Below, piece after piece: positions 19,389 to 41,676 of a DNA stretch of 64,000 nucleotides (the stretch's first letter is position 1; the number at the start of each line of letters is the position of its first letter). The DNA is from Planctomycetaceae bacterium (GTDB lineage: Bacteria; Planctomycetota; Planctomycetia; Pirellulales; UBA7805), in NCBI GenBank assembly GCA_902630355.1, contig CACOUL010000005.1, forward strand, positions 1-64,000, read 5' to 3'. The position numbers and the translations under genes were made by a program. The notes below the pieces were generated by a model that saw only the letters and a program-made list of their open reading frames with translations, searched no databases and had not been told where the DNA came from.

Positions 19389-21155
19389 ATGTTTCAAGCC
19401 TTTACCATGCAGTGCGTCACGTGCGGCGCGCAACTTCGCGTCGAACGTGAAGAGGCGATCGGGCAAATCCTCAACTGCCCTAAATGCAAGAGTATGGTGC
19501 AGATTGAAATGCCCGCCCTCGCAGGGGCAGTAATTCACGAGGCCGCGACTGAACCTCCAACTGAGGAAGGCCTCTCAGCCGATTTGACGGGGAATGCCGG
19601 CCAACCTGAGACCGCAGCACATCAGACACAGACAACGGTCCCCACGCTTCCTCGCAGCCCCGCGATGAAGCTGCCCCAGTGGGCCCTACTGCCGGTCGCC
19701 GCAACGGTGGGGGTGCTGTTCGCCATCGGTGTATGGTCGGCATTTCAACTACCAACTGATCACAACGCAGCTGATAACGACCCGGCCTCACAGAAAATAC
19801 AGTTTAACGAATCGTCACTCACGCCCACCGTAAACTCACCTCAATCTCCGCCAACGCCTGTGGCACCACCAGCGGATCTCGAGTCCGCAGACCGCGATCA
19901 AACGGTTCCTCAAGAGCAGAACGATCGCAGCGCAGCGGCGCCGGAACTACAACACACAGAGCACACAGAGCCTCCCACACGAAACGATGCCGCCCATGGG
20001 GTTGAGGAGGACAACCCCGAGCCAGACTCACCAGCAGAATCGCAACTGCCCACGGACACACCGCACCGGGACGGGGACGTGCAGCAGCACCACAGCGATA
20101 CGGCACAAAAACATTTACCCCCGGCAAGCGACCAGCTCAAAAATCAGATGCTTCGAGAAGTACTTGGGATCACTTTCGAACCAACCTCCTTAAAACGTGC
20201 TGCCGCAACGCTCGCCCAATTATTAGCAGTGCCCATACAAATCGATCTCGCGGCACTCGGCCGGGCCGGCATCGCGCCGGATACACCGGTCGAATATCAA
20301 GGAGATGCCCGACAGTTGCGAGACGTGTTGGCCGAAATGCTCACACCGCTCGGTTTGGTCGCTACCGAAACGGGAGATCGCATTTTCATTACTCTGCCGG
20401 ATGCGGATGATCGGTCATACAGCGAGATGACATACGATGTACCGCTCTCGAGCGATGCAGTGGAGTCGCGCAATTTAATTAAGTCATTTGTTAATCCCGA
20501 TACATGGAAAGGGCAGGGGGGCGCGGGAACGATCACCATCAACGGCAACGCACTGCTGGTTTCGCAGACGCCAGCCGTCCACGGTAACCTCCACCGCTTT
20601 TTCAGTGATTTCCGTGGTGGCACTCAGAGGCTGTCTCCCTCAGTTGACGCAAACATCGTTAAGCACGCCCTCTCTCAAGCGATCAACTGCACGACAGATC
20701 AACCGGTTCCGCTCAGTGACTACCTGCGACAACTCAGCTCTAGAACGGACGTGGAATTCATACTCGACGAACTCCAACTCCTCCGCAATGGTATTTCTCC
20801 GTCGCACCCGATCTCGGTCAGCACACCTGAGCCGACTCTACAGACTCTACTCGAAGAGTTGCTGGCACCTTTGGGACTTGCCTTCCGCCCCCTCTCCGCC
20901 AACACGTTCCTCATCACGCTTCCGGCCGATTGCGAGCCGCAGTTGCGGGTTTATTTTCTCCCGGTTCCTCCTGAAGCCGTCAGGCGTGGAGAAGCGTTAC
21001 TCACTTCGATCCGACAGGAAATTGCCCCCGACTCGTGGCAGACGGCGGGCGGGGAGGGGAAGCTCGCCTTGCACCCGGCATCTCGTCGCTTGATCCTCTT
21101 GCAGCGACCCGAAACACAGCAGAAGGTCACCCACTACCTAAATTCTTTACCCTAG
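19389..21155 (+). CDS. Zinc-ribbon, single-TM protein with duplicated STN-like domains
   Basis: CVTCGAQLRV...CPKCKSMVQI zinc ribbon, TM LLPVAATVGVLFAIGVWSAF, Pro/Thr/His-rich linker, two copies of a 'xLxxxLxxL...VxxxxDxxxL...GIxPxxPV...LxxxLxxxLxPLGL...FxITLP' module. Confidence 0.65.
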   Translation: MFQAFTMQCVTCGAQLRVEREEAIGQILNCPKCKSMVQIEMPALAGAVIHEAATEPPTEEGLSADLTGNAGQPETAAHQTQTTVPTLPRSPAMKLPQWALLPVAATVGVLFAIGVWSAFQLPTDHNAADNDPASQKIQFNESSLTPTVNSPQSPPTPVAPPADLESADRDQTVPQEQNDRSAAAPELQHTEHTEPPTRNDAAHGVEEDNPEPDSPAESQLPTDTPHRDGDVQQHHSDTAQKHLPPASDQLKNQMLREVLGITFEPTSLKRAAATLAQLLAVPIQIDLAALGRAGIAPDTPVEYQGDARQLRDVLAEMLTPLGLVATETGDRIFITLPDADDRSYSEMTYDVPLSSDAVESRNLIKSFVNPDTWKGQGGAGTITINGNALLVSQTPAVHGNLHRFFSDFRGGTQRLSPSVDANIVKHALSQAINCTTDQPVPLSDYLRQLSSRTDVEFILDELQLLRNGISPSHPISVSTPEPTLQTLLEELLAPLGLAFRPLSANTFLITLPADCEPQLRVYFLPVPPEAVRRGEALLTSIRQEIAPDSWQTAGGEGKLALHPASRRLILLQRPETQQKVTHYLNSLP

Positions 21156-22653: not shown

Positions 22654-23907
22654 GTGACCATGAGCGCCCAACCACCTTACCGATGCCCGAAATGTCGCCT
22701 CCGCCGGACCCGGTCCGCGCTGAGTCCCTCAATGACCGCTTCGCGCCTGCCTTCTCGCCGCGGACTAGCGCCGCTCGAAATGGTGATGGGACTACCGCTG
22801 ATCCTGCTGCTTTTTGCCCTAATTATTAACGCGGGCTTTACAGGCATGTGGAAACTTCGACTTCTCGGTGCCGCGCGGGAAGTTGCCTGGCGATCCCGGG
22901 ACCCGCGCACAAGCAATCTACCGAATCCCGACTATCAATCAAATTTCTGGAGGCAGCCGAACCATTCGGAAGACAAGCCGCTCACCGTGAACGCCTCGGC
23001 GGGGCACCCTTTGAGTATTCCCGACCTTGCTTCTGCCTCTGCCGTTCGCTCGGACTATGGATCGTTGCGAGTCGATACGCAATTACTCGATCCTAAACGC
23101 GGGGTCCTGGAAGGGCAATCCGACGTTGCGAGGAAATTACCTCTGCTTCCCAATGGATTGAAGACGATGCACTCCAATCCGAAACATTACATAACGGACA
23201 ATAGTTTTCCCTTCTGGAATACCAGGCTCTCAAACAACGTCGGCAGACGGACACAGGTGCTTTATGGCGAAGACAATGGCATCGCATCGAGTGAATTTGG
23301 AAACGATTGGGCGGGGTACACAGACTCGGTGGTAAATACCAATGTTGCTCTAATGGCAGACAATCTTCTGCCCCTCGGTGGCTTTCACGTGGAACATAGC
23401 CTATGGCCGAAATACAACGAAGGCCGATACCATGACCCGGAAGTATACACTTGGCAGTATCGTGGCCTTTTGCCGCATCCACCGGGATTCATGCCCCAAA
23501 TCAGTAGTTTCATCAGTTCAGATGCAGACGCCATCCGGCAGAGTCACGTCGACCCTCACGTGCTAAAAATCGAGGACGACGATGACCTGCGTGTCGAAAC
23601 GGGAGCAATTAAGGAGACAGAGAAAAACCTACCGCATTCGCTCGCGGGAAGTTACGTCAGCTTTTTCAGAGATGCGATCGGTTTGGTCCAAGACCATATC
23701 GACCAAGTCAACGAGCAGATACAAATGTCTCAGATGAACTTACAGGCCGCGACGCAAGCCGGAGACACCAATACCATCGCGAGCCTCAAGCAAACAATCA
23801 GTGAACTCCAAAATGAACTTTCGATGGCCACAACGGAGTTTCAACGACGAGAGCAAATCCTCAACCCGGTCATTCAGCAATTAGAAGCCTACCAGTCGGG
23901 TTTCTAG
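22654..23907 (+). CDS. TadE-like pilus assembly/pseudopilin protein
   Basis: RRGLAPLEMVMGLPLILLLFALIINAGFTGMWKLRLLGAAREVAWR matches the TadE-like N-terminal TM segment (xxGxxxxExxxxLPxLLLLF); first gene of the putative tad cluster. Confidence 0.7.
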   Translation: MTMSAQPPYRCPKCRLRRTRSALSPSMTASRLPSRRGLAPLEMVMGLPLILLLFALIINAGFTGMWKLRLLGAAREVAWRSRDPRTSNLPNPDYQSNFWRQPNHSEDKPLTVNASAGHPLSIPDLASASAVRSDYGSLRVDTQLLDPKRGVLEGQSDVARKLPLLPNGLKTMHSNPKHYITDNSFPFWNTRLSNNVGRRTQVLYGEDNGIASSEFGNDWAGYTDSVVNTNVALMADNLLPLGGFHVEHSLWPKYNEGRYHDPEVYTWQYRGLLPHPPGFMPQISSFISSDADAIRQSHVDPHVLKIEDDDDLRVETGAIKETEKNLPHSLAGSYVSFFRDAIGLVQDHIDQVNEQIQMSQMNLQAATQAGDTNTIASLKQTISELQNELSMATTEFQRREQILNPVIQQLEAYQSGF

Positions 23908-23981: not shown

Positions 23982-24962
23982 ATGGACACCCGTCATATCC
24001 AATCCAAAGCAGTGACTCCTAGCGATGAGACGTCATCCCCGGGCAACCCCAATCGATCGTGGTCGGTTTCCGGGGTTGTGGACGCGCTCCAGGGTGCGAT
24101 CAAAACCATACTGACCCTGGCGATCCTTGCACTGTTTTTATATATCGGGCAATACCTTGTGCAGTTCTCCGGCCTCGATTCTCAAGCCGTAACCACGAGG
24201 CCCGCCGACGCTGCCATATTGAACTCGGACAAACCGATGACAATTCGCTTTGCCGATGCACCGTTTGCATTTTACCAAGAACACTATGCGGGCAGTGATG
24301 AGATGCTCCAACAGCGGGTCCAAGAGGCGTGTTATCGAATGGCGGTCGCGAGTCCCTCTCCCGTCACCGCGCCTAGTGCCGAAGAATCCCGTTTGCTCAA
24401 TACGCTCTCCGCGTCCGCTTGCAGTGCGCCGGGGGAGGGCATTCTTGTTTGTCAGGCGAGTCCCACCCTTCCTCTCTTCGTCGGCCTGCGATGCCCTGCG
24501 ACTGACTTCTCTGCCGCCGTGACCCCTGAAATGGTACGCACCGCACGCGTTGTCTCCTGGGGTTTTGCGCTACCGTCAGCAGTCAACGAGTGGAAGATAC
24601 GTGCGATCGGGAAAGGGACAGAGAGCGGAAATATCTCATCGATCTCCTTGCCCCCCGAAGTTCTCAAGATACTGCAACTTAATACACGCGGCGGCGATTC
24701 GATTGTTGCTTTCTCAAGCCAAAGCAAACTTTCTGAACAGATTGCAAGCTTCGACCGTTATTTTGCCGAGCAGCAATGGCAAAAGGGCACTCCATGGAAT
24801 GTATCGAGCGATCATGGTCGCGGCATCTACACCCGCAGAATGGGAGATCGCGTTGAAGAGGCGACCGTTCACATTCAACGGGACGGTTCCTCATCCCCCA
24901 GCGAACGAATCCCTCGCTGGCATGGCATCATCAATATGGAACAATACGATCAAACAGATTAG
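23982..24962 (+). CDS. Hypothetical single-TM protein of the tad-like cluster
   Basis: ORF with N-terminal TM TILTLAILALFLYIGQYLVQF; located between TadE-like and CpaB-like genes. Confidence 0.6.
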   Translation: MDTRHIQSKAVTPSDETSSPGNPNRSWSVSGVVDALQGAIKTILTLAILALFLYIGQYLVQFSGLDSQAVTTRPADAAILNSDKPMTIRFADAPFAFYQEHYAGSDEMLQQRVQEACYRMAVASPSPVTAPSAEESRLLNTLSASACSAPGEGILVCQASPTLPLFVGLRCPATDFSAAVTPEMVRTARVVSWGFALPSAVNEWKIRAIGKGTESGNISSISLPPEVLKILQLNTRGGDSIVAFSSQSKLSEQIASFDRYFAEQQWQKGTPWNVSSDHGRGIYTRRMGDRVEEATVHIQRDGSSSPSERIPRWHGIINMEQYDQTD

Positions 24963-25000: not shown

Positions 25001-25708
25001 ATGAAGGGCATTCAGGGACTGATTATCGCAATTGTCTTGGGACTCGTAGGTTTTGCATTCAACATGTATTACCTCACAAAGAGTCGCGATTTTGCGCACG
25101 ATTCGTTCATCGGAGTCAAAAGAAACGCGAACATCAAGCGCGGTACACCGCTAAGCAAAAATCACTTTGAAAAAATCTCGATCCCTAAAGAATATGTCGG
25201 TAACTTGAAACGATATGCCCTCGTCTGGTCAGACATCGATGCGATTGAGGGCCGCAAGGCGATTCGCGACTATGAAGAGGGGGGCTTGCTGCTGCGTAAC
25301 GATTTCCGAACTGCTCCAAACGAACTTCGCCTAATCGGCGGAGAAACGGCCATATCGGTACCCATCGATACCCGCACCACGAACACCTCGCAAATCATAC
25401 CGGGGGAAACGCGAATATCATTCTATATCCCGAGCGTACGAGGCCAGAGTTCGGATACCGCACTCGAAGGCAATCGTCAATGGATCGGCCCCTTCGATGT
25501 CCTCGCAGTGGGCAACCGCATGGGGTCTACCGACATCGTCGACCAGCAGGGCGGCAGAGGAAACAGTGAAAATCGGGTGACCCTCAAGGCGACCAGCGAA
25601 TCTGGAAGAGACATTAAAGGCATGCCGCAGTTAATGAATTATCTTACGACCAGCAAATTCAAACCGCTCCGATTAAAAATACACGCGGCAAACCCCGATA
25701 GTCGCTAA
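25001..25708 (+). CDS. CpaB/RcpC-like (SAF domain) pilus assembly protein
   Basis: N-terminal TM, ANIKRGTPLSKNHFEKISIP, GRKAIRDYEEGGLLLRNDF, ISVPIDTRTTNTSQIIPGETRISFYIP. Confidence 0.65.
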   Translation: MKGIQGLIIAIVLGLVGFAFNMYYLTKSRDFAHDSFIGVKRNANIKRGTPLSKNHFEKISIPKEYVGNLKRYALVWSDIDAIEGRKAIRDYEEGGLLLRNDFRTAPNELRLIGGETAISVPIDTRTTNTSQIIPGETRISFYIPSVRGQSSDTALEGNRQWIGPFDVLAVGNRMGSTDIVDQQGGRGNSENRVTLKATSESGRDIKGMPQLMNYLTTSKFKPLRLKIHAANPDSR

Positions 25709-25731
25709 CCAATCGTGCCGAGGGAATTTTG

Positions 25732-27687
25732 ATGAAAGTCTGGTTCAATCGCATCAGTGAAAGCCGCCGCTCAATGCTCGAACTCGAGGGAACTGAGTTC
25801 CGAATTGGCCGCGACCAGTCCAACGACATTGTCCTCACAAGTCCACTTGTGTCGCGCGAGCATGCGGTCGTGCGCCTGGTCGGCGAACAACTCGAGCTTG
25901 AAAATCTGGGCATCAACAGCTGCCTCGTCGGAGAAACGGAAATCCTTGGTGGTCAGTCGGCCTCATTTACGCCGGGCGCTAAAATTCGAATCTGGCCTTA
26001 TACGATTTCATTTCAACGCGAAACAGAATCGAGCTATAGCCAGACAGAAATCGAGTCGCATTTGCGTCGTCAAATGGCAAAACTTGAACTCGATATTCAT
26101 CAAAAGCTTCTGGAACGACTCGATCTTTACGAATTCGAGGGTGAGCGGGGCGCAACGCAAGACAGCATCATTCTCCTGGAAAACAATATTGAGGATGTCT
26201 GCCGGGACCTCAACCTTTTTGGCGATCAAAACGAAGCGTTGCTCGAAGAAATTACAGGCATCACACTTCGCGACCAACTTGTCAATCAGTTGATCCTGGA
26301 AACGGGTGAGGACGACGTCGTTTTTGACCTTGCGGTCTTAACCAGCAACGAGTTTGATATTCCCGCTACACTCGTACCGGAACGAGAAACGGAGCTTCAT
26401 AGCCTGCTGACCTTTATCCGGGAGAAGTTGGCGTTAAACGAATTGCCGGATGTGAGCAGTCGTGTTCGCACTTTAGAACAAAAGTTTGCCGAAACATTTC
26501 ATCTCGTGCGACCCCACCTTCATGGCGAATTACGCAAATATCTTATCCTTCGTGCAATAAAGAAAGATCTCAAAGATACCGTATTCGGGTTCGGGCCTTT
26601 ACAGGATCTACTGCGGGCACCGACGATCACCGAGATCATGGTGGTCCAGAGCGATCAGATTTTTGTCGAGCGCGACGGCATTATCGAAAACTCCGGAAGG
26701 CGTTTTCTCTCCGAAAAGGTAACCGAAGCGATCATCGAAAGGATCGTAGCCCAAGTTGGCAGACGAATCGACAAAAGCCAACCGCTTGTTGACGCTCGGC
26801 TTCCTGACGGGTCCCGCGTCAATGCCATCATTCCGCCGCTGGCAATTAAGGGGCCGTGCCTGACGATACGAAAATTCCCCATTCAGCGTCTGGCAATGGA
26901 TGACCTTATTGAATTTGGAAGCATCTCCAGGTCAGCGGCAACATTTCTTCGCTCGGCGGTGATTGACGGTCGGAATATCTTAGTCAGTGGGGGTACTGGC
27001 ACGGGAAAAACCACCTTCCTTAATATTCTTTCCAGTTTCATTCCATACAAGCAACGGATTGTCACGATCGAAGACACCACGGAACTGCGACTGCATCAAG
27101 AACATGTGGTAACCCTTGAATCAAAGCCCGCCAATGTCGAGGGGGTAGGGGAATATACCATCCGGGACTTGGTCACCAATGCGCTTCGAATGAGACCCGA
27201 TAGAATTCTGGTCGGTGAGTGTCGCGGTGGTGAAGCGCTCGACATGGTTCAGGCGATGAACACCGGCCACGACGGATCGATGACCACCCTCCATGCAAAC
27301 AGCGCAGATGAGGTTTTGGAGCGACTTGAGGTCCTCATTCTGATGGCTGCCGATCTCCCCGTAATCTCTATCCACCGACAGGTAACGTCCGCAATCGACC
27401 TGATTGTCCACATTGACCGCTGGCCCGGAGGGCAGAGAAAAGTAACCCAGATTGCCGAGATCACAGGGATCGATCCGGATACCAAGCGTGCGAACACGAC
27501 CGATATCTACAACATCCGACAAACTTCCAGTTCGCTGCGGCCCACAGGATATCTTCCGAGTTTCATTGATAGCCTGGTTGATAAAAACCTGATCGATTTA
27601 GATTTCCTGTACGAAAACTACAATGAATCCGCAAATCAACCATCGACTAACGGGGAAACACTCTCCTCAAACGAGCCCTTCGGGTAA
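25732..27687 (+). CDS. cpaF: FHA domain fused to CpaF/TadA-type secretion ATPase
   Basis: FHA: FRIGRDQSNDIVLTSPLVSREHAVV...LENLGINSCLVG. ATPase: Walker A SGGTGTGKTTFLNIL; Walker B/His region RPDRILVGECRGGEALDMVQAMNTGHDGSMTTLHANSADEVLERLE. Confidence 0.9.
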   Translation: MKVWFNRISESRRSMLELEGTEFRIGRDQSNDIVLTSPLVSREHAVVRLVGEQLELENLGINSCLVGETEILGGQSASFTPGAKIRIWPYTISFQRETESSYSQTEIESHLRRQMAKLELDIHQKLLERLDLYEFEGERGATQDSIILLENNIEDVCRDLNLFGDQNEALLEEITGITLRDQLVNQLILETGEDDVVFDLAVLTSNEFDIPATLVPERETELHSLLTFIREKLALNELPDVSSRVRTLEQKFAETFHLVRPHLHGELRKYLILRAIKKDLKDTVFGFGPLQDLLRAPTITEIMVVQSDQIFVERDGIIENSGRRFLSEKVTEAIIERIVAQVGRRIDKSQPLVDARLPDGSRVNAIIPPLAIKGPCLTIRKFPIQRLAMDDLIEFGSISRSAATFLRSAVIDGRNILVSGGTGTGKTTFLNILSSFIPYKQRIVTIEDTTELRLHQEHVVTLESKPANVEGVGEYTIRDLVTNALRMRPDRILVGECRGGEALDMVQAMNTGHDGSMTTLHANSADEVLERLEVLILMAADLPVISIHRQVTSAIDLIVHIDRWPGGQRKVTQIAEITGIDPDTKRANTTDIYNIRQTSSSLRPTGYLPSFIDSLVDKNLIDLDFLYENYNESANQPSTNGETLSSNEPFG

Positions 27688-27717: not shown

Positions 27718-28587
27718 ATGCTCCTGGCCAATTCATCACCCAATGAAATTGTCATTCTCGCCTCCTCGCTCTTTGTGGGCGCAGGTGTGGGACTTTTTTC
27801 ATATGCGTCAAAACCGTACTACTTGCGCGGCATCGATTATCTCGAAGCTGATTTTTCTGATAAGTTCCGCCGTCTTCAGATAAGCACGAGCAAACTACGG
27901 CTCGGACTTATTCTCTGGTCGATTGGCCTGCTTGTCATTTTCCTCGTGTTCACCCTCTTGCTGGGGAGTCTCATCTTCGGATTCCTAAGCACCCTGTTGC
28001 TCTTTTCAGGCCCATGGTGGTATCTGAGACGGAAAGCGCAGATACGACGCGACCAAATTGAAGACCAGCTTGCCGACGCAATGGTTTCTCTTTCAAGCGC
28101 CATCCGAGCCGGCGTTTCATTGCCCCAGGCAGTCGAGATGCTGGCAGACAACTCCCCCCAACCGATCAAGAGTGAATTTGGGTACATCATGACCGACTAC
28201 GAAATGGGCAAGCCGCTCGATCGTGCCCTTCAGGAAGCCAAAGAACGTCTCCGCAGCGAGAATTTTGCTCTGTTTGCTGCCGCAATTCTTGCAAGTCGTG
28301 ATAGTGGCGGCCGACTCAACGAGACCGTGGACCGCATCGCACATTCGGTACGCGAACTGCAGCGCCTGGAGCGGAAGGTACAATCCGATACGGCAATGGC
28401 CCGAAAAAGTGCCATCTACATGGCCATTGCCCCGTTCATTATCCTGGCAGCCTATTACTTCCTCGATAGTGGAGCGGTTTCCAATTTATTCAGCACCACG
28501 ATCGGACAAATGCTCCTTGCGGCTTCGATTGTATTGAACATCATTGCCTATTTGTGGGCGCGACACATCTTGAACCCCGATATCTAG
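27718..28587 (+). CDS. tadB: TadB-like type II/IV secretion F domain membrane protein
   Basis: LADAMVSLSSAIRAGVSLPQAVEMLADNSPQPIKSEFGYIMTDYEMGKPLDRALQEAKERLRSENFALFAAAI; multiple TM helices. Confidence 0.85.
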   Translation: MLLANSSPNEIVILASSLFVGAGVGLFSYASKPYYLRGIDYLEADFSDKFRRLQISTSKLRLGLILWSIGLLVIFLVFTLLLGSLIFGFLSTLLLFSGPWWYLRRKAQIRRDQIEDQLADAMVSLSSAIRAGVSLPQAVEMLADNSPQPIKSEFGYIMTDYEMGKPLDRALQEAKERLRSENFALFAAAILASRDSGGRLNETVDRIAHSVRELQRLERKVQSDTAMARKSAIYMAIAPFIILAAYYFLDSGAVSNLFSTTIGQMLLAASIVLNIIAYLWARHILNPDI

Positions 28588-28608: not shown

Positions 28609-29550
28609 ATGTCTCCCGAAATGCAACTTCATTCTGCAGCACCCGACTTGCTTATCGTCCGCCTGATAGCGAGCGGGGCGATCGCCACCGGTCTGGCAAT
28701 TCTAGGGTGGTGGATCATCTGCTCCCTCGCCTCGGAAGACCTGGAACAGAAAAACGAGTGGCGATTCGATATTAACCGTGTGAATGAACTCCGCCGGCTT
28801 GATCAGGTTTTCCGCACCTTTCAACCCGCGATCCAGCTTTTTGCCCGCATCAACCGCAACATGTTCGCCGAGTCTCTCCCTTCAATCGCACGGGAAATCA
28901 ATGCGGCGGGGCTTCCTCGTTTTTGGCTACCCGAAGAGTATTTGGGGAAACTCCAGTTTTTTGCTGCGGTGCTCACACCCGTTTATCTCTGGTTTTTTGT
29001 CAGCTCATTCGGTGAGATTGGGATTGCGCTGGCTTTCATGGGGTTTATCGCAACCGCATGGATTCTTCGACTCCACCTAAGAAATCGCGCACTTTATCGT
29101 GTCGTACTGATCAAGCGTCGCCTCCCGTTTTTGCTCGACCTTATGACGCTCCTGATGGAGGCGGGCTCGACCTTCCTTCACGCACTTCGCCAGGGCGTCC
29201 AGGAATTCGAGGGACATCCCGTGGCTTTTGAGTTTGGCCGCGTGCTGGCGGACATGCAAATGGGAAAGACTCGCACCGATGCATTCCAGGCCATGCAGTC
29301 ACGTCTGGCCGACGATGAAATTTCGAGTATTATTTCGTCGATTATCCAGGGGGAGCAACTCGGTTCGCCCCTCGCCCAGGTATTTCGCATTCAATCAGAT
29401 GTGCTTCGGATCAAGCGGACACAACGCGGCGAAAAGATTGCAGCCGAGGCGGGAGTCAACATGCTGTTACCCGGAATTCTCATCATGCTTTCAACTGTTT
29501 TAATTATCCTGGGACCATTTTTGATAAACGCGGTTGGATTTTTAAATTAA
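28609..29550 (+). CDS. tadC: TadC-like type II/IV secretion F domain membrane protein
   Basis: LPFLLDLMTLLMEAGSTFLHALRQGVQEFEGHPVAFEFGRVLADMQMGKTRTDAFQAMQSRL...; C-terminal TM. Confidence 0.85.
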   Translation: MSPEMQLHSAAPDLLIVRLIASGAIATGLAILGWWIICSLASEDLEQKNEWRFDINRVNELRRLDQVFRTFQPAIQLFARINRNMFAESLPSIAREINAAGLPRFWLPEEYLGKLQFFAAVLTPVYLWFFVSSFGEIGIALAFMGFIATAWILRLHLRNRALYRVVLIKRRLPFLLDLMTLLMEAGSTFLHALRQGVQEFEGHPVAFEFGRVLADMQMGKTRTDAFQAMQSRLADDEISSIISSIIQGEQLGSPLAQVFRIQSDVLRIKRTQRGEKIAAEAGVNMLLPGILIMLSTVLIILGPFLINAVGFLN

Positions 29551-29568: not shown

Positions 29569-30504
29569 ATGGCAATTGAGCTTGATTGTCCCCGTTGCAA
29601 CCGGAGCCTTTCTCTGGCCGACGAGTTAGCCGGGCAGTATGCGCAGTGCAAACATTGCGAGGGGCGAATCTGGGTATCGGCACCTCAAGCGCCGAAGTCC
29701 GGTCAACCCTCTTCTCGCAGTCAACCACCACCTGTGCCGTCCGTCACTGGGCCAACACCGGGGGGAGACTCCGGGCATGATGAAGTCAGTCCCACCCCAC
29801 TCCCGACAGCCAGCCATGTCGCGGCGCCACCCCTGACCAACACGACGGACATGCCGACACAGCCTCCACCAACTGCGTCCACTGACACCAACTCGAGTGA
29901 CATGGCGACAGAAAGGTCGGTTTCACCGCCACCGATAACCGCTTCACCTGCCAATCCCCCGCCGCCACCAAAAAAAAATAAACGGGTCGCTGAATTAATA
30001 GCGGCCGAACCGGCACAGTCACGACTTGAAGTCGGGCCCGGCGGAGACCTCCCCGAACTAAGCCTTTCGGCCGGTGAAGATCAAGACAGCGATCAGAAGC
30101 AGAAGAAAAAATCAAATGACTGGCTGGTTTTTGCTGTAATCATCATGAGTCTCGTTGTCTCCACCGCGATGCTCATGATAGATAGCGAAACAAACCAAAG
30201 CGTTCAAGGTGAGACAAAGCAACATATTCGTGATAAAATCAAAGCCAAATATTTCGGGCCTCCGGAAGGCCCGTGGCGGAAGTATCAACAGCTACTGCGT
30301 GATGCAGCGCTTGCGAGGAGTCAAGGCGATTTTGAAAAGGAAGAACAAAACTACCGGTTGGTTTTGTATCAACTCAATGCGGCTGATCTCGACAAAACTG
30401 ACCAGGGGGTAACCGGACTCCGCAGAGCGACGAGGAACGACGCGTCCCTTCCGAGCGACGAGGAACTCAAAACGCTTCTGCACGCACTGCTATATAACAA
30501 TTAA
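29569..30504 (+). CDS. Zinc-ribbon, Pro/Thr-rich, single-TM hypothetical protein
   Basis: CPRCNRSLSLADELAGQYAQCKHCEGRIWV, long Pro/Ser/Thr-rich linker, TM WLVFAVIIMSLVVSTAMLMI. Confidence 0.65.
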   Translation: MAIELDCPRCNRSLSLADELAGQYAQCKHCEGRIWVSAPQAPKSGQPSSRSQPPPVPSVTGPTPGGDSGHDEVSPTPLPTASHVAAPPLTNTTDMPTQPPPTASTDTNSSDMATERSVSPPPITASPANPPPPPKKNKRVAELIAAEPAQSRLEVGPGGDLPELSLSAGEDQDSDQKQKKKSNDWLVFAVIIMSLVVSTAMLMIDSETNQSVQGETKQHIRDKIKAKYFGPPEGPWRKYQQLLRDAALARSQGDFEKEEQNYRLVLYQLNAADLDKTDQGVTGLRRATRNDASLPSDEELKTLLHALLYNN

Positions 30505-30524: not shown

Positions 30525-33500
30525 ATGCAGCCACACGCGCGTTACAACATTATCGCCCAGATTGCATCGGGAGACTTTGCCTCTGTTTTCCGTGCGCGCG
30601 ACAAAGAACTCGCTCGCGATGTGGCGATCAAGCAAATCCATCCGCATTTTCTTGCTGATCCAAGGCAACTCAATCTGTATTGGGATGAGGCTCAGACACT
30701 CGCATCACTGGAACATCCCAACGTATTAACGATTTACGATATTGATCGTGAACGCGGCTGGCTGATTCTGGAACTCATGAAAGACACCATGCAAACGCGC
30801 GCGGCAGGCAAGCCGCTCGACTTGGATTTGGTGCGCATGGGACTGATCTGCGGACTCAAGGCACTCGATTTTTTACATAAGAGCAACATTATTCACGGTG
30901 ACGTTAAACCGAGCAATTTGCTCATTGACCGTCGCAATTGGATAAAACTGGCAGATTTCGGATTCGCGCAACGAGCAACCAACGATCAGGGGAGTCTGTT
31001 TAAAGGAACCACTCGCTATATTGCCCCCGAACGCGTTGACCCCGAACGATTCGGCCCGGTGGGCCCGGCCAGCGACCTCTATTCGCTCGGCTTTGCCATG
31101 TACGAATTGTTGTGTGGCAATGCCTTTGAATCGCTGTTTCCGGGATTCGCGGCATTTGGATCGGATAAACAAATCGCCTGGATGATGTGGCATGCCGGCC
31201 CAGACCGGCACATTCCAAAAATCAGTCGCGTTCTGAAGGGTGTACCCGAGGACTTGGCACATGTCATCGAGCGCCTCGTGATAAAAAACCCCGAAGAACG
31301 CTATCGGGATGCCGAGGAGGCGATTCGCGATCTCAAACTCGGCATGGGGCAGCAGGCGGGAATGACTGCAGCCGAAAAAGCCGAAGAGGAAGCAGCGGCT
31401 CTCGAAGCCGAATCAAAAAAGAGGCGGAAAAAAATTCTCATCGTGGCAGTGTGCAGCTTAGTCCTTAGCTTGCTACTAGTCGTCTGCCTTCCGTTCCTTG
31501 AACCGCCGCCACCACCCGAGGTAAAGCGATTACCGGAAATTCACGGTGAGATTGTGCAAATCTACGAATCTCCGGCATCGGATGACTCCACACCGGACAT
31601 GACGCTCGGAAAGTTTGTGATTGACGCTGACCGAATCATCATTAAAGGTCCGAACGCTACGGACAAAAAGCATGAAATGGTCGGCGACCAGATCAACGCC
31701 CCGCAAACATTGAACATCCGCTCGATCGATCAGATCACTATCAATGACGAGCGATTAAATCTCAAAACTCCTGAATTCGGCATGCACCTCTTTAAAGTCG
31801 GGGATAGCGTTCGCTCCGAAGTCGATCTCGATCGCACGACGGGGCAACAAATCCAGATCATTCATATTTCCCGACCCATCGAAGACACTGGAGAAATTGT
31901 CGATGTCCAACCGGACAACAATGCGTTCGTCATCAAGAGTAGATCGTTCGATAACGATTTGATTAAGATTTTCCTACCGGAAGCTATTGTGATCGAAATC
32001 AATGACAGAAAGCGACGGTCGCAAAACAACAATACTGCAGGCCTACTTAAAAACGGCGATCAGGTTCAACTCAGCCACAACGTCTTTTTTGAGAATGGGA
32101 AGCAAACCGATGATCGTCAAGCTCAACATGATTCCGTGATCCGGGTCACCCGTCAACTCACAACGAGAGGAGAAATCCAAGACATCGATGTTGCAAATCG
32201 AACGATCATTGTTCGCACAAGTAATGGCGAAAAACGCTCCATTCGACTGGGAGATACATGCGAAATAATCGTCAACGGCCGAAGAAATATCCGCGATCGG
32301 AAACTTTCAATGGCCGACCTCAAATATCGCGATCAAGTAACAGTAGACCACGATAATCTTGCGCAAACAATCGATGCGAGGCGAACAAGCAAAGGAGAAG
32401 GGTCGATTCTTAAAATTACTCCGGCTACACGACGCCTCCGAATCCAACTTCAGGGAAGCGATTCCCGTATTGCATCTTTTCATCTTCCAGAATCCGTAGC
32501 CGTCACGCTCGGGCCCGAGCAGGTGACGCTTGAAGACCTTCAACCGACCGATATGGTGACCCTCACTTACGATGACACCGACTCGGATAACCCGGTTATC
32601 AGCCAACTCACGGCAGAGAGGCGAGCTGATCGCAAGCGCTGGGCGATCGTACTGGGATTCAATAAATACGATGATCGCACACTTAGCCCGGTCGCGCATC
32701 TTGGCCCCGCTTCAGACAACGTTGTGGACACCCTGATTCGGCGCTACCGGATACCCGAAGACCAGGCCCTCAGGCTAAAGAACGTGTCTCGCACGGAACT
32801 CAAATCAAATATCAAGAGCTTTCTTCGGCAAATACGGCAGGGCGATCAGCTTCTCGTCTACTACGCAGGACACGCATATATTGATCGCAACAATCAACCG
32901 CAGCTGGCAACAACCGATTTCGAACTTCTCGATGCAGCCAACACAGGGCTTCCCCTCGCTTGGCTCATCGAAAACATTGAGACATGTTCGGCGGATGATA
33001 CGGTTTTATTCCTCGACACCTGTCACGAGGGGAGCGGCGCCGATTTACGCCAACAACCGTCGAGCGAGGAGCAGATCCTGTTACTTGAAAAGGATCGGTC
33101 TCGGCCCGCTCTCAAATCACTCCGGGTGATCACCAGTTGTGGCGCCAACGAGAGAGGGCAAGTGGATCGCGGGGAGGGTATTTTTGCAAATGCAATTGGG
33201 GCAGCCTATCGAGGTGATGCAGATACAGACGCTGACCGAAACGTCACACTTGCAGAAGTAAGCGATTTCGTTCGCAAGTACCTTGCAAACGAAACCAATG
33301 GCGCCCAAACGTCGCGCGTCATTATGCCCGGAAAGGTCGTCCCCCCGAGACTCAGTCCGGATGCCATCGAACAAATGAAGGCACTGGCTGACCAACTACG
33401 GAAAACGACAATTAATTCACTGGAAATCATTCAACTGGTAGATGAACTCGATGGGGACTCAGCGGAGGAACCTGAACCAAAACTCTTATGTGGCCTTGCC

Positions 33501-34019
33501 GAAGTCCGCCTTAAAAACTACCGCGACGCGATCATGCGTTTTGAAGACTGCGGAGAAAGTCCCATTGCCATTCAAGGAATTATCTGGAGCAACTATCGCT
33601 CCCGCGACTACTCTGACGCAGTCGGCCAACTTATCACACTTACCGACATTGCAATACAAATGCGGGGTGGCGATGAGCGGCAGAGGCGCGAAGCAAAAAG
33701 AATTTTAGAGTGGGCAGGAAGACTTCGGGAATATGCGGCCGCCGAAGCCCCTAAAAGAGACCAAATATCGACCCTCGATGCGGAACAGATCGATGACGCC
33801 GTAAAGAGCGGAGGCCGAGATGCCGAAACATTTTACAATGAAGGACGAGAATCGGTACAGAAGGTAGCGGCACGGTTTGACCGTGCGATCGACGAGGCGC
33901 CGAGCAATGGAGCACGGTCGGTCGCGCGAAACAAAAAAATGAAACTGAGCAACTATGCCGATTTCAATCTGTCGCTCCTCATCCAGCAGATCATGCGATC
34001 GGCACAGGAAGACGGCTAA
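30525..34019 (+). CDS. Transmembrane Ser/Thr protein kinase - caspase (peptidase C14) fusion
   Basis: Kinase: VAIKQIHPHF, IIHGDVKPSNLLID, LADFGFAQ, YIAPERVD. TM: KKILIVAVCSLVLSLLLVVCLPFL. Caspase: RWAIVLGFNKYDD...QLLVYYAGHAYID (His), TVLFLDTCHEGSGADL (Cys). TPR-like C-terminus. Confidence 0.88.
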   Translation: MQPHARYNIIAQIASGDFASVFRARDKELARDVAIKQIHPHFLADPRQLNLYWDEAQTLASLEHPNVLTIYDIDRERGWLILELMKDTMQTRAAGKPLDLDLVRMGLICGLKALDFLHKSNIIHGDVKPSNLLIDRRNWIKLADFGFAQRATNDQGSLFKGTTRYIAPERVDPERFGPVGPASDLYSLGFAMYELLCGNAFESLFPGFAAFGSDKQIAWMMWHAGPDRHIPKISRVLKGVPEDLAHVIERLVIKNPEERYRDAEEAIRDLKLGMGQQAGMTAAEKAEEEAAALEAESKKRRKKILIVAVCSLVLSLLLVVCLPFLEPPPPPEVKRLPEIHGEIVQIYESPASDDSTPDMTLGKFVIDADRIIIKGPNATDKKHEMVGDQINAPQTLNIRSIDQITINDERLNLKTPEFGMHLFKVGDSVRSEVDLDRTTGQQIQIIHISRPIEDTGEIVDVQPDNNAFVIKSRSFDNDLIKIFLPEAIVIEINDRKRRSQNNNTAGLLKNGDQVQLSHNVFFENGKQTDDRQAQHDSVIRVTRQLTTRGEIQDIDVANRTIIVRTSNGEKRSIRLGDTCEIIVNGRRNIRDRKLSMADLKYRDQVTVDHDNLAQTIDARRTSKGEGSILKITPATRRLRIQLQGSDSRIASFHLPESVAVTLGPEQVTLEDLQPTDMVTLTYDDTDSDNPVISQLTAERRADRKRWAIVLGFNKYDDRTLSPVAHLGPASDNVVDTLIRRYRIPEDQALRLKNVSRTELKSNIKSFLRQIRQGDQLLVYYAGHAYIDRNNQPQLATTDFELLDAANTGLPLAWLIENIETCSADDTVLFLDTCHEGSGADLRQQPSSEEQILLLEKDRSRPALKSLRVITSCGANERGQVDRGEGIFANAIGAAYRGDADTDADRNVTLAEVSDFVRKYLANETNGAQTSRVIMPGKVVPPRLSPDAIEQMKALADQLRKTTINSLEIIQLVDELDGDSAEEPEPKLLCGLAEVRLKNYRDAIMRFEDCGESPIAIQGIIWSNYRSRDYSDAVGQLITLTDIAIQMRGGDERQRREAKRILEWAGRLREYAAAEAPKRDQISTLDAEQIDDAVKSGGRDAETFYNEGRESVQKVAARFDRAIDEAPSNGARSVARNKKMKLSNYADFNLSLLIQQIMRSAQEDG

Positions 34020-34711: not shown

Positions 34712-35587
34712 TTAACGATTGCGGTCAGATAAAAAATGCTCCAACTCGCGGCGGTCGATCATACCGTCTTGATTGCGATCCGCCTGCCGCACATGTCCAC
34801 GTAGTTTGGGAGGAATTTCATCAACTGAGAGGAGTCCATCTCCATCTGCATCGTTTCGAAACAACCGATCCACCAACCGATCAACGTTCGAACGATCGCG
34901 CCCTTCGCCACGTGGCGGGCCTTCGTCGTCGTCGGACCGGGATCTCGCCCGCTCCGGAGGTCGCCGTCGATTTGAAAAATCCGCGTCTTCTTCCCGCGAG
35001 TCGAAATCATCTTCATCCTCAAATCGGCGGTCATTATCGAAGTCGTCTTCAAACCCCTCATCGTCGAATTGACCCGGAGGCGGTCGCCGCCTGCGATCGG
35101 AGCGATCAAACCGGCCATCACTCTCATCGCGGTCGTCAAAATCCTCCTCAAATCGATTCGGAGGTGGTCGTCGTCCGCGAGGCGGGCCCCCAAATCGGTC
35201 ATCATCGTCGCGGGGGACCGGACGCCGAAATTCCCCATCGCTCGGGTTCCGATTTCGACCATTATCGGGGCGATCGAAATCGTTATCTCGCGGGCGGCGC
35301 GGCGACCGGAACAACGCTGCTAATTCGCGCGGATCGACGTATCCGTCACCGTCGCGATCAAGCCCCTTGAGCTTCTCTGCGATCGCCTGAATTTCTTCGT
35401 GCGAAAGCATCCCGTCACCATCTTTATCGAATCCCTCGAGCGGTGGCGGCAAATGGGGCCCGCGACGGTGAGCAGGTCGTGGCGGATCCTCTCGATCAAA
35501 CTCATCGAAATTATCGTTTTCGTCCGCCGACAGCGGCAGAGCGACCAACAATAACAACAAACATAAGACCCGGCAGAGTTGAATCAT
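34712..35587 (-). CDS. Secreted EF-hand protein with Asp/Arg/Pro-rich low-complexity linker
   Basis: Signal peptide MIQLCRVLCLLLLLVALPLSADE; four EF-hand loops: DKDGDGMLSHEE, DRDGDGYVDPRE, DADGDGLLSVDE, DRNQDGMIDRRE. Confidence 0.82.
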   Translation of the reverse strand: MIQLCRVLCLLLLLVALPLSADENDNFDEFDREDPPRPAHRRGPHLPPPLEGFDKDGDGMLSHEEIQAIAEKLKGLDRDGDGYVDPRELAALFRSPRRPRDNDFDRPDNGRNRNPSDGEFRRPVPRDDDDRFGGPPRGRRPPPNRFEEDFDDRDESDGRFDRSDRRRRPPPGQFDDEGFEDDFDNDRRFEDEDDFDSREEDADFSNRRRPPERARSRSDDDEGPPRGEGRDRSNVDRLVDRLFRNDADGDGLLSVDEIPPKLRGHVRQADRNQDGMIDRRELEHFLSDRNR

Positions 35588-35724: not shown

Positions 35725-37203
35725 TCAAAGGCTCACCACCACCAATATCGTGACAGCGATGACGGCCACGAGAAGGACCACCCCCATCGTAATGGCCATT
35801 CTATTGGGCTTTTTCTCCGCTGCACTACGCTCGCGTGGACGCAGTTCCGCACTGGCGGACAGGTCGGCGGGTGATTCTTGCCAGAGCACATCCTCCTCGC
35901 GATCCTCGAGGGGCGCCAATTCTGGAACGACAGCCGTATCGTCCGATACTTCTTCGCTTGCGGCGGCCACTGACCGGACCCGCGGCAACTCACGAGCAGC
36001 CCATTCGGCATACTTCGCAGTCCCTACGCCTCGGGTTTCGGCAATCCGCTTTAATAAATCAATGGCCTGCTGGAACTCTCTTCGCTGGAGGTATAACCGT
36101 ACTTTCCTGCAGTCTTCCCGCATGCCGTCGACTACCGAAACAGACTTTACAGGATTATCTTGCTCGCCATCCAAGGCAATTTCAATTTCCTCGTGCGCTG
36201 AGCCCACTTCGCCGAGCCTCGTGCCACTGACCGTAGGTTCGGCACGAAACTCTTTGAGAAATTGGTCCAATGCCGCGACCAACTCCTGCATTGTCGCAAA
36301 ACGATCTTCCGGATTTCTTGCCATTGCCCGCATGCAAATAGCGCAAATTCGAGGATCCAGTTCCTGTCGATGCGCATCTGGCGACTTCGGGTCCTTTGAG
36401 ATCACTTCCGTGATCAATGCCACAATCGACCCGCCCCCCTCAAACGGAAGTTCACCCGTAAGGGCTTCGTAAAAAAGAACTCCCAGGCTATAGATATCCG
36501 ATCTGGGATCGACATCCGAGACTTTGCCTCCGAGCTGCTCGGGTGACATGTAGGCCGGCGAGCCGGAAATAGCGCCTTCGCGGGTGATTTTTACATCCTC
36601 ATTGCCACTCCGTCGCGCTAGACCAAAGTCCATAACCACCGGCTCTCCGCGGTGGTCGATCATGACGTTGTCCGGCTTCAGATCCCGGTGCACCAAATCG
36701 TATCCGTGCGCTTCGTGCATCGCTTGGGCGATTTTACGGACCACACGGGCCACCTCATCTTGTGGTTGTCGGCGGGAACCGACGTAATCGGCCAGCGAGT
36801 GACCTTCGACGTACTGCATGGCGATATAATGCGTTCCCTCATCCTCACCCACATCATAAATCGCACAGATATTCGGGTGTGAAATCGCCGCTGCGGAACG
36901 GGCCTCGCGATAGAATCGCTTGATCACTTCCTCCCCGGAGCCCTCGGGAAATTTCGGAACTTTCACCGCCACCGGTCGGTCGAGCATCTCATCCCGGGCA
37001 AGATAGACCGCCCCCATCGATCCCGTTCCGAGAACCCGTTCAATTTGGTAGCGCCCGATTCGCTTTTTTTGCTCCGGCACGCTTCCCTCCCGATCGGGTG
37101 CCGTATCCTGATCCGAGTTGATCATCATGGTCTCCTGCAGGTCGCGATCTTTACGCGCAGAACCTGCCGAAGACTGACTTTGTGACGAACCCTCATCGTA
37201 CAT
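35725..37203 (-). CDS. Serine/threonine protein kinase (canonical, C-terminal TM)
   Basis: LGTGSMGAVYLARD, VAVKVPKF, LVHRDLKPDNVMID, MDFGLARR, SPAYMSPEQL; C-terminal TM MAITMGVVLLVAVIAVTILVVVSL. Confidence 0.92.
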   Translation of the reverse strand: MYDEGSSQSQSSAGSARKDRDLQETMMINSDQDTAPDREGSVPEQKKRIGRYQIERVLGTGSMGAVYLARDEMLDRPVAVKVPKFPEGSGEEVIKRFYREARSAAAISHPNICAIYDVGEDEGTHYIAMQYVEGHSLADYVGSRRQPQDEVARVVRKIAQAMHEAHGYDLVHRDLKPDNVMIDHRGEPVVMDFGLARRSGNEDVKITREGAISGSPAYMSPEQLGGKVSDVDPRSDIYSLGVLFYEALTGELPFEGGGSIVALITEVISKDPKSPDAHRQELDPRICAICMRAMARNPEDRFATMQELVAALDQFLKEFRAEPTVSGTRLGEVGSAHEEIEIALDGEQDNPVKSVSVVDGMREDCRKVRLYLQRREFQQAIDLLKRIAETRGVGTAKYAEWAARELPRVRSVAAASEEVSDDTAVVPELAPLEDREEDVLWQESPADLSASAELRPRERSAAEKKPNRMAITMGVVLLVAVIAVTILVVVSL

Positions 37204-40362: not shown

Positions 40363-41676
40363 GTGGATTACCTGCTTGCAAATATCGACTTCACCGACTG
40401 GTGGCTACGCCCGTTCAGCGAACGCTGGTGGCAGGAAACCGTATGCAGCATGCTGGTGGGCATCACCTGCGGTGTGCTCGGCTGCTATGTCGTTCTGCGT
40501 CAAATGGCACTCATCGGCGATGCGCTGAGCCACGCTGTACTCCCGGGAGTGGTGATTGCCTTTTTAGTGACACATGATACGGGTGTTCTGGGATTGCTCT
40601 CGGGCGCTCTGCTCGCTGGCGTACTCACGGCAGTTCTGATCGCAGTGATCAGTCGACTAAGTCGCACCAAGGAGGATTCATCGATCGGGATTGTGTTTAC
40701 CACACTCTTTGCCATCGGCATCATTCTCATCAGCACTATGCCAAAAGGAGTGCATTTCGACTTGAACTGTTTTTTATTCGGTACCCCATTGGGTGTCGAT
40801 TCTTCAGATCTGCTTTTAATGGCCATCGTCTGCCCCACCGTCCTCGGCACGATCGTTCTGCTTTACCATCCGCTGAGGGCATCGAGTTTCGATCCCACCG
40901 TAGCAGCGGCGATGGGAATTCCGGTCGTTCTCCTCCATTACCTGCTGATGGGCATGCTCTCGGCTACCGTCGTCGCCGGCCTGAAGACGACCGGCGTCAT
41001 TCTGGTGGTCTCGCTGATGATTACTCCCGCCTCGGCCGCCTATCTGCTCACCAACCGTCTTGGAACGATGATGTTGCTGGCTGGCATTTTTGGTGGCTTT
41101 TGCGCCGTGGCCGGAATGACACTCTCCTTCGCAACCAACTGGCCCTCTGGTGCAACGATGGTTGTCTTTGCGGCTGCCATCTTTTGCGTAGTGCTGCTGG
41201 TGAGTCCCTCACAGGGCCTGCTGACACGCTATCTACAGCGACGGAGAATGCGTCGCCACATTCAAGAAGAGGATATCCTCAAAGCGATTTATCGCCTGGT
41301 GGGTAAACATGAAGCCCCGGGGCAACACCTGGTCTCTTCGGAACAAATATACCCCCTGGCTCGTGTATCGCGGCGTCCGGCGGAGCGGATCATCCATACT
41401 TTAAGCAAGGAAGGACTCCTCTACCAGAAAGCTGAGCATGTGGGATTGACCGACCAGGGAATTGATCGCGCGATCCAGATGGTCCGCGCCCACCGGCTTT
41501 GGGAATCCTACCTGACCGAGCATGCAGGAGTCACAGCCGAGGAGGTTCACGACCAGGCAGAAGAACTCGAACATGTCCACGACCTGGCCGACCGAATCGA
41601 TCGGGATTTAGGGCATCCGGAAACCGATCCTCACGGAGAGGTCATCCCCCGGCCAGCCGATGAGCAGGCCGAATAA
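40363..41676 (+). CDS. Metal ABC transporter permease fused to C-terminal DtxR/MntR-like metalloregulator domain
   Basis: GTG start. Permease core CYVVLRQMALIGDALSHAVLPGVVIAFL; C-terminus EEDILKAIYRLVGKHEAPGQHLVSSEQIYPLARVSRRPAERIIHTLSKEGLLYQKAEHVGLTDQGIDRAIQMVRAHRLWESYLTEHAGVTAEEVHDQAEELEH. Confidence 0.88.
   Translation: MDYLLANIDFTDWWLRPFSERWWQETVCSMLVGITCGVLGCYVVLRQMALIGDALSHAVLPGVVIAFLVTHDTGVLGLLSGALLAGVLTAVLIAVISRLSRTKEDSSIGIVFTTLFAIGIILISTMPKGVHFDLNCFLFGTPLGVDSSDLLLMAIVCPTVLGTIVLLYHPLRASSFDPTVAAAMGIPVVLLHYLLMGMLSATVVAGLKTTGVILVVSLMITPASAAYLLTNRLGTMMLLAGIFGGFCAVAGMTLSFATNWPSGATMVVFAAAIFCVVLLVSPSQGLLTRYLQRRRMRRHIQEEDILKAIYRLVGKHEAPGQHLVSSEQIYPLARVSRRPAERIIHTLSKEGLLYQKAEHVGLTDQGIDRAIQMVRAHRLWESYLTEHAGVTAEEVHDQAEELEHVHDLADRIDRDLGHPETDPHGEVIPRPADEQAE

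Follow-up and report, generated by a model that had tools for sequence, protein, structure and literature searches.

We analysed a 64,000-nucleotide stretch of a planctomycete genome (contig CACOUL010000005.1, positions 1 to 64,000; hereafter the window), which encodes at 30525–34019 on the forward strand an open reading frame (ORF) of 1164 aa that joins a Ser/Thr kinase, a membrane-spanning helix and a caspase fold, and that forms the last gene of a Tad-type operon. We consider it probable, at about 0.62, that this protein acts as a receptor-type Ser/Thr kinase and regulates a dedicated Tad machine by way of phosphothreonine, with the caspase fold reused as a sensing or docking module. At the level of sequence, the domains, the topology signature, the operon, the co-occurrence of the kinase with a TadA motor bearing an FHA domain, and the loss of the caspase dyad among relatives are each apparent. 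The ORF and its anatomy are as described in the original prediction, which was made from the letters of the window alone.

The window contains the TadA–TadB–TadC core of a Tad (type IVc) machine, upstream of the kinase gene (Table 1). Intergenic gaps from RcpC through the kinase are only 18–30 bp and the gene after the kinase lies on the opposite strand; the kinase–caspase gene is, as had been proposed, terminal in its operon. Its linkage to Tad genes is both real and conserved across relatives, as the order RcpC–TadA(FHA)–TadB–TadC–(Zn-ribbon/transmembrane protein)–kinase is kept across many families, with the kinase last, and was found in the class Planctomycetia. A feature that the original prediction lacked is that the TadA of this operon bears an FHA domain, which points to a kinase-to-Tad-motor axis as the conserved function; its binding residues G27/R28/S42/H45/N63 are conserved in 37–38 of 38 TadA orthologues.

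This pairing extends well beyond the window. Besides the window protein, a search of its order returned 14 full-length orthologues, and a scan of genome contigs yielded 80 named loci, nearly all labelled as planctomycetes. In a sample of 248 genomes from the phylum, the kinase subfamily (E ≤ 1e-60) was present in five, all of the window's class. Across 98 genomes of the order (kinase E ≤ 1e-40; FHA-TadA scored as a match starting at residue 1–2, using the piece bearing the N-terminus where TadA was split over contigs), we found FHA-TadA in 26 and the kinase subfamily in 24, all of them nested within the 26, whilst none of the 72 genomes without FHA-TadA had the kinase (Fisher 7e-21 for the 98 genomes; 1e-18 for the 82 with any TadA). 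The kinase-bearing genomes cover eight family codes. As for the two FHA-TadA genomes without a kinase call, the contig of one (G003) ends inside TadA, and the other (G049) has a weaker-scoring kinase in the operon. Moreover, where a caspase-bearing kinase is distant from TadA, FHA-TadA is encoded elsewhere in all 12 genomes examined. One family member (L057, JABMRB010000439.1) is labelled 'Candidatus Nealsonbacteria' and is probably a mis-binned planctomycete contig. At seven loci, some labelled Mariniblastus (L072, L075, L077–L079, L122 and L127), a second large ORF of 806–1354 aa with weak similarity to the kinase family lies ∼2 kb past the kinase–caspase gene.

By its motifs and its one transmembrane helix, the protein is a Hanks-type transmembrane Ser/Thr kinase. 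Pfam Pkinase matches residues 7–264 (8.8e-40), PknB chains are its best relatives in the PDB (7e-27), and the motifs listed in the original prediction are intact: VAIK (K36), HGDVKPSN (D126/K128/N131), DFG (D144) and APE (E169). Seven Lys or Arg residues fall within the 20 residues before the helix (∼302–325) and two in those after it. For 83 proteins, comprising family members and four divergent kinases, a single helix was predicted in 77 and a positive-inside bias in 77, in agreement with the topology originally suggested, with the kinase inside and the caspase fold outside the inner membrane. The region that had been described only as β-rich is predicted to form tandem OB/cold-shock-like barrels (AlphaFold2, predicted local distance difference test (pLDDT) 89.5), with matches to CusF_Ec in 34 and to DUF5666 in 22 of 75 relatives, and the C-terminal tail is helical and TPR-like, as proposed.

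When Pfam was run on the window protein alone the caspase domain was not detected, and a negative from this source alone would thus have been misleading. The NCBIfam model caspase_w_EACC1 matches residues 706–922 at 3.6e-20, with a score under the model's own cut-off, the PADLOC caspase model matches the protein at 1.1e-12, and 49 of 68 relatives have a match to Pfam Peptidase_C14 (6.6e-19 at best). Judged by its AlphaFold2 model (pLDDT 95.7), the domain is a caspase fold, for which Foldseek returned MALT1 (3v4o, TMt 0.67) and caspase-9 (0.68). When the family profile was aligned to MALT1, the basis for the dyad correspondence, YYAGHAY fell on GHGY and DTCHEG on LLDMC, placing H783 and C833 on the catalytic His and Cys. 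The window protein thus has homologues linked to Tad genes, a predicted transmembrane helix and a dyad in register with that of a caspase, rather than the unlinked homologues, missing helix and mismatched dyad that the original prediction had named as counting against it.

Of the 68 family members that bear a caspase domain, 14 have the catalytic Cys, 47 the His and 11 both residues; on the family tree, the Cys position must have changed at least 11 times. The same-genus orthologue has Ser in place of the Cys, and the copy at locus L014/L043 has Ile and Ser in place of the two dyad residues. The kinase residues of the family are retained at K36 in 77 of 80, at K128 in 80 of 81, and at D126, N131, D144 and E169 in 81 of 81 each. 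As controls we used further caspase domains encoded by genomes in the window's order, aligned identically and counted where both positions could be aligned; both dyad residues were present in 18 of 18 (20 rows before two duplicates were removed). As similarity to the caspase of the window was the basis of their retrieval, these controls may be biased toward intact copies. A published survey gives an intact dyad for 84 % of caspase homologues overall and for 64 % of those from planctomycetes (PMC3501461). The proportion in our family (16 %) is far lower than the survey rate (binomial p 6e-16) and differs from the controls (Fisher p 2e-11), although both p values overstate independence as the members are related. 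Ordered by conservation, the Cys column is 1st of 201 in the controls but 135th of 235 in the family. The 57 copies with a broken dyad retain other positions: D831 (Asp in 53, Glu in four), Q928 (57 of 57) and the acidic loop at 900–911 (47 of 57). Seven members of ∼650 aa, nested within a clade that lacks the tail, have no caspase domain at all and also close this operon wherever upstream sequence exists; the G012 and G030 kinases are likewise frames of 572–616 aa with no caspase fusion. In view of the low dyad count, the Ser in the same-genus orthologue, the intact controls and the caspase-less members in the same operon slot, the earlier suggestion of an envelope protease as the output was not borne out. 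With the cutting residues gone in most relatives, the domain looks instead like a repurposed sensor. Nevertheless, as the window protein keeps its dyad, it may have local protease activity, and some members may still cleave.

From this arrangement we infer a target of phosphorylation, a binding event at the FHA domain, an effect on the motor and a signal, as follows. The ectodomain, consisting of the OB barrels, caspase fold and helical tail, would lie outside the inner membrane and there sense or dock a component of the envelope or of the Tad machine, thereby altering the kinase inside the cell. The kinase would then phosphorylate a Thr, either its own or that of a Tad protein; this mark would be read by the FHA domain of the cognate TadA motor ATPase, switching recruitment or activity of the motor. 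The caspase fold would have been co-opted to bind a ligand or partner, and in most lineages it would no longer act as a protease.

Three other explanations were weighed. The original prediction favoured an active envelope caspase, gated by the kinase or gating it, that would cleave periplasmic Tad substrates or envelope proteins. The window dyad aligned on the MALT1 His and Cys, the fold modelled at high confidence, the 11 intact relatives and a separate, probably exported, intact-dyad caspase after the kinase gene at a divergent locus (L149) would all suit such an enzyme; yet most relatives, the same-genus orthologue included, have lost one or both residues, with at least 11 Cys changes on the tree, the domain is dispensable, and the Cys of a working protease would be expected to rank near the top for conservation, as that of the control caspases does, such that we regard this explanation as unlikely. 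That the kinase instead controls a non-Tad process, such as envelope stress or cell division, with the operon link reflecting co-regulation only, appears quite improbable to us. Planctomycete genomes do contain tens of kinases each (as candidate counts), and unlinked copies occur in one clade, but the association with FHA-TadA (24 of 24 vs 0 of 72) also holds where the kinase is unlinked, and the motor itself carries the phosphothreonine reader. Finally, the operon could be a module for prey killing or regulated death, namely a Kil-like pilus for contact-dependent killing with the kinase/caspase as contact sensor or effector. The Kil system of Myxococcus is Tad-like, its ATPase KilF has an N-terminal FHA domain, and its contact-induced assembly is thought to require a signalling cascade (PMC8460266); however, FHA-CpaF proteins are widespread in betaproteobacteria (class III CpaF, PMC12019362) and the scan of the operon genes revealed no effector, toxin or immunity gene, leaving this explanation very improbable.

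Several observations also weigh against phosphothreonine control of the Tad motor by a receptor kinase with a repurposed caspase fold. The co-occurrence counts (24/24 and 0/72) ignore shared ancestry, and the kinase gene is often not beside Tad genes in one clade (at L061, too, it lies away from most of them). The scanned neighbouring genes showed no cognate phosphatase, for which no systematic search was made. In addition, a Cys stands at the preceding residue in 19 of the 57 copies with a broken dyad, and this, together with the intact dyad of the window protein, makes residual or altered proteolysis possible.

More divergent operons contain related arrangements. In those of G020, G057 and G080, where TadA is 46–49 % identical, the terminal gene is a transmembrane kinase with Ig-like and TPR ectodomains. 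Given this pattern of a receptor kinase with a phosphothreonine-reading motor, the caspase fold can be read as one of the kinase's interchangeable ectodomains. We put forward, tentatively and at somewhat less than even odds, an undescribed class of Tad system gated by a receptor kinase/FHA-motor pair with interchangeable ectodomains, amongst them a caspase fold repeatedly stripped of catalysis and serving outside the inner membrane as a sensor or dock that is possibly Ca2+-dependent, for which the term pseudocaspase receptor kinase would be apt. At L145 the gene between TadC and the kinase encodes an FHA/YscD-like domain and no Zn ribbon. The FHA-TadA operon of G049 (L149:6147–11130) encodes a transmembrane kinase, then a TPR protein, then the separate caspase with its intact dyad (FSGHG/DACRND); here the caspase is the product of a neighbouring gene rather than a fused domain. 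The clusters at L144, L145, L146 and L153 each contain two Tad motors, as a short TadA gene without FHA precedes the FHA-TadA operon by a few kb.

Table 1. Positions of the operon genes and of the parts of the kinase–caspase protein within the window
Feature	Position	Strand	Support
TadE-like protein, weak	22654..23907	+	4.2e-4
Conserved operon protein, no family assigned	23982..24962	+	
RcpC/CpaB-like protein, weak	25001..25708	+	Pfam 0.003, NCBIfam 3.7e-5
TadA/CpaF ATPase with N-terminal FHA; true start probably ATG at 25732	25729..27687	+	T2SSE 9.1e-57
FHA (phosphothreonine-binding) domain of TadA	25801..25992	+	2.6e-10
TadB-like inner-membrane platform protein	27718..28587	+	T2SSF 5.4e-20
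TadC-like inner-membrane platform protein	28609..29550	+	T2SSF 1.4e-14
Zn-ribbon, Pro-rich linker and transmembrane protein between tadC and kinase, position conserved	29569..30504	+	Profile match weak
Kinase–transmembrane–OB repeats–caspase fold–helical tail protein, 1164 aa, last gene of operon	30525..34019	+	
Hanks-type Ser/Thr kinase domain, residues 1–270	30525..31334	+	Pfam, PknB-like PDB match, motif counts
Single transmembrane helix, residues 302–325, K/R-rich toward kinase (N-in)	31428..31499	+	Hydropathy, positive-inside count
Tandem OB/cold-shock-like β barrels, predicted extracytoplasmic, residues 326–700, CusF_Ec/DUF5666-related	31500..32624	+	
Caspase-fold domain, predicted extracytoplasmic, residues 704–930	32634..33314	+	
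Catalytic-position His783; His in 47/68 relatives	32871..32873	+	
Catalytic-position Cys833; Cys in 14/68 relatives, else mostly Ser, Gly, Thr	33021..33023	+	
EF-hand-like acidic loop D900-x-D902-x-D904-x6-E911; in 47/57 broken-dyad relatives	33222..33257	+	
Helical TPR-like tail, residues 940–1164; missing from many members of one clade	33342..34016	+	

Neither pilin, secretin nor prepilin peptidase genes were found among the scanned operon genes, with no systematic search made for pilin or secretin; the second TadA of the window's genome, on contig C33, is FHA-less and adjoins a prepilin peptidase. The Zn-ribbon protein was considered as a Thr-rich substrate, but its linker is Pro-rich (16 %) with Thr only slightly raised across the family (6.7 % vs 4–6 %), and this idea was not supported. 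A role as a defence effector was likewise set aside, the PADLOC matches being mainly to generic kinase models. Upstream of the operon and co-oriented with it, a 988-aa ORF (16172–19138, +) has a degenerate kinase domain (Pkinase 7e-11) and is conserved in the same-genus locus L031 at 41 % identity; as it has HGGVSPQ where HxDxKxxN is expected, it is probably a pseudokinase. A 588-aa protein (19389–21155, +) with an N-terminal LysW-like Zn ribbon and a weak STN (secretin N-terminal)-like segment is also conserved in L031. Just downstream of the operon lie genes for an EF-hand protein (34712–35587, −) and a second Ser/Thr kinase (35725–37203, −). Farther along, an ABC-3 metal permease fused to a DtxR-type Fe_dep_repr_C domain (40363–41676, +) adjoins ZnuA and an ABC ATPase, and so combines a transporter and a metal sensor within one protein.

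The presence of FHA domains on Tad motors (KilF and class III CpaF) and a proposed signalling cascade for Kil are already known, whilst we found no paper naming the kinase, and our literature search for a Tad-linked kinase in planctomycetes returned none. The family described here, encoded by 24 of the order's 26 FHA-TadA genomes, is a concrete candidate partner, which makes phospho-control of Tad pili directly testable. If our reading is right, a bacterial caspase fold has been retained for its structure whilst catalysis was lost many times, and caution would be needed in reading such caspase genes as cell-death proteases.

With regard to known systems, in the H1 type VI secretion system (T6SS) of Pseudomonas aeruginosa Fha1, an FHA protein, is phosphorylated by PpkA, a transmembrane kinase whose VWA domain is extracytoplasmic, with recruitment of the machine (PMC3224232). 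Like PpkA–Fha1(–PppA), the operon described here encodes a transmembrane Hanks-type kinase with an extracytoplasmic sensor together with a secretion machine that has an FHA component; unlike it, the machine is Tad rather than T6SS, its motor ATPase itself carries the FHA domain as a fusion, and OB barrels and a caspase fold replace VWA, with no phosphatase or Tag genes seen adjacent. Indeed, the scanned neighbours are Tad genes, and no T6SS genes, PppA phosphatase or Tag genes were identified among them. The likeness to PpkA–Fha1-type control is a formal one, and the two may work in an analogous manner. As receptors, PknB/Stk1-type PASTA kinases (NCBIfam NF033483), the best NCBIfam and PDB kinase relatives, share the kinase, single transmembrane helix and repeated ectodomain, but PASTA is absent here and the NF033483 score is 175 bits against a family cut-off of 450. 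Prokaryotic caspase homologues and metacaspases (Peptidase_C14) resemble the window protein in fold and dyad position, and the survey reports transmembrane helices in 15 % of those covered; the passages of its main text that were searched describe no kinase fusion, and its dyad rates of 84 % and 64 % differ from the 16 % found here (PMC3501461). The Kil/Tad-like system of Myxococcus xanthus shares an FHA domain at the N-terminus of a CpaF-type ATPase, there KilF (PMC8460266; PMC12075869). In contrast to Kil, however, a kinase subfamily here tracks the FHA-ATPase across genomes; the word kinase is absent from PMC8460266 and phosphorylation is not mentioned in the later Kil paper (PMC12075869). 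Finally, class III CpaF ATPases, built from FHA, an intrinsically disordered region and CpaF, have the same motor architecture at the domain level but are reported mostly from betaproteobacteria and with no kinase partner (PMC12019362), whereas the motor described here belongs to Planctomycetia and comes with a partner kinase.

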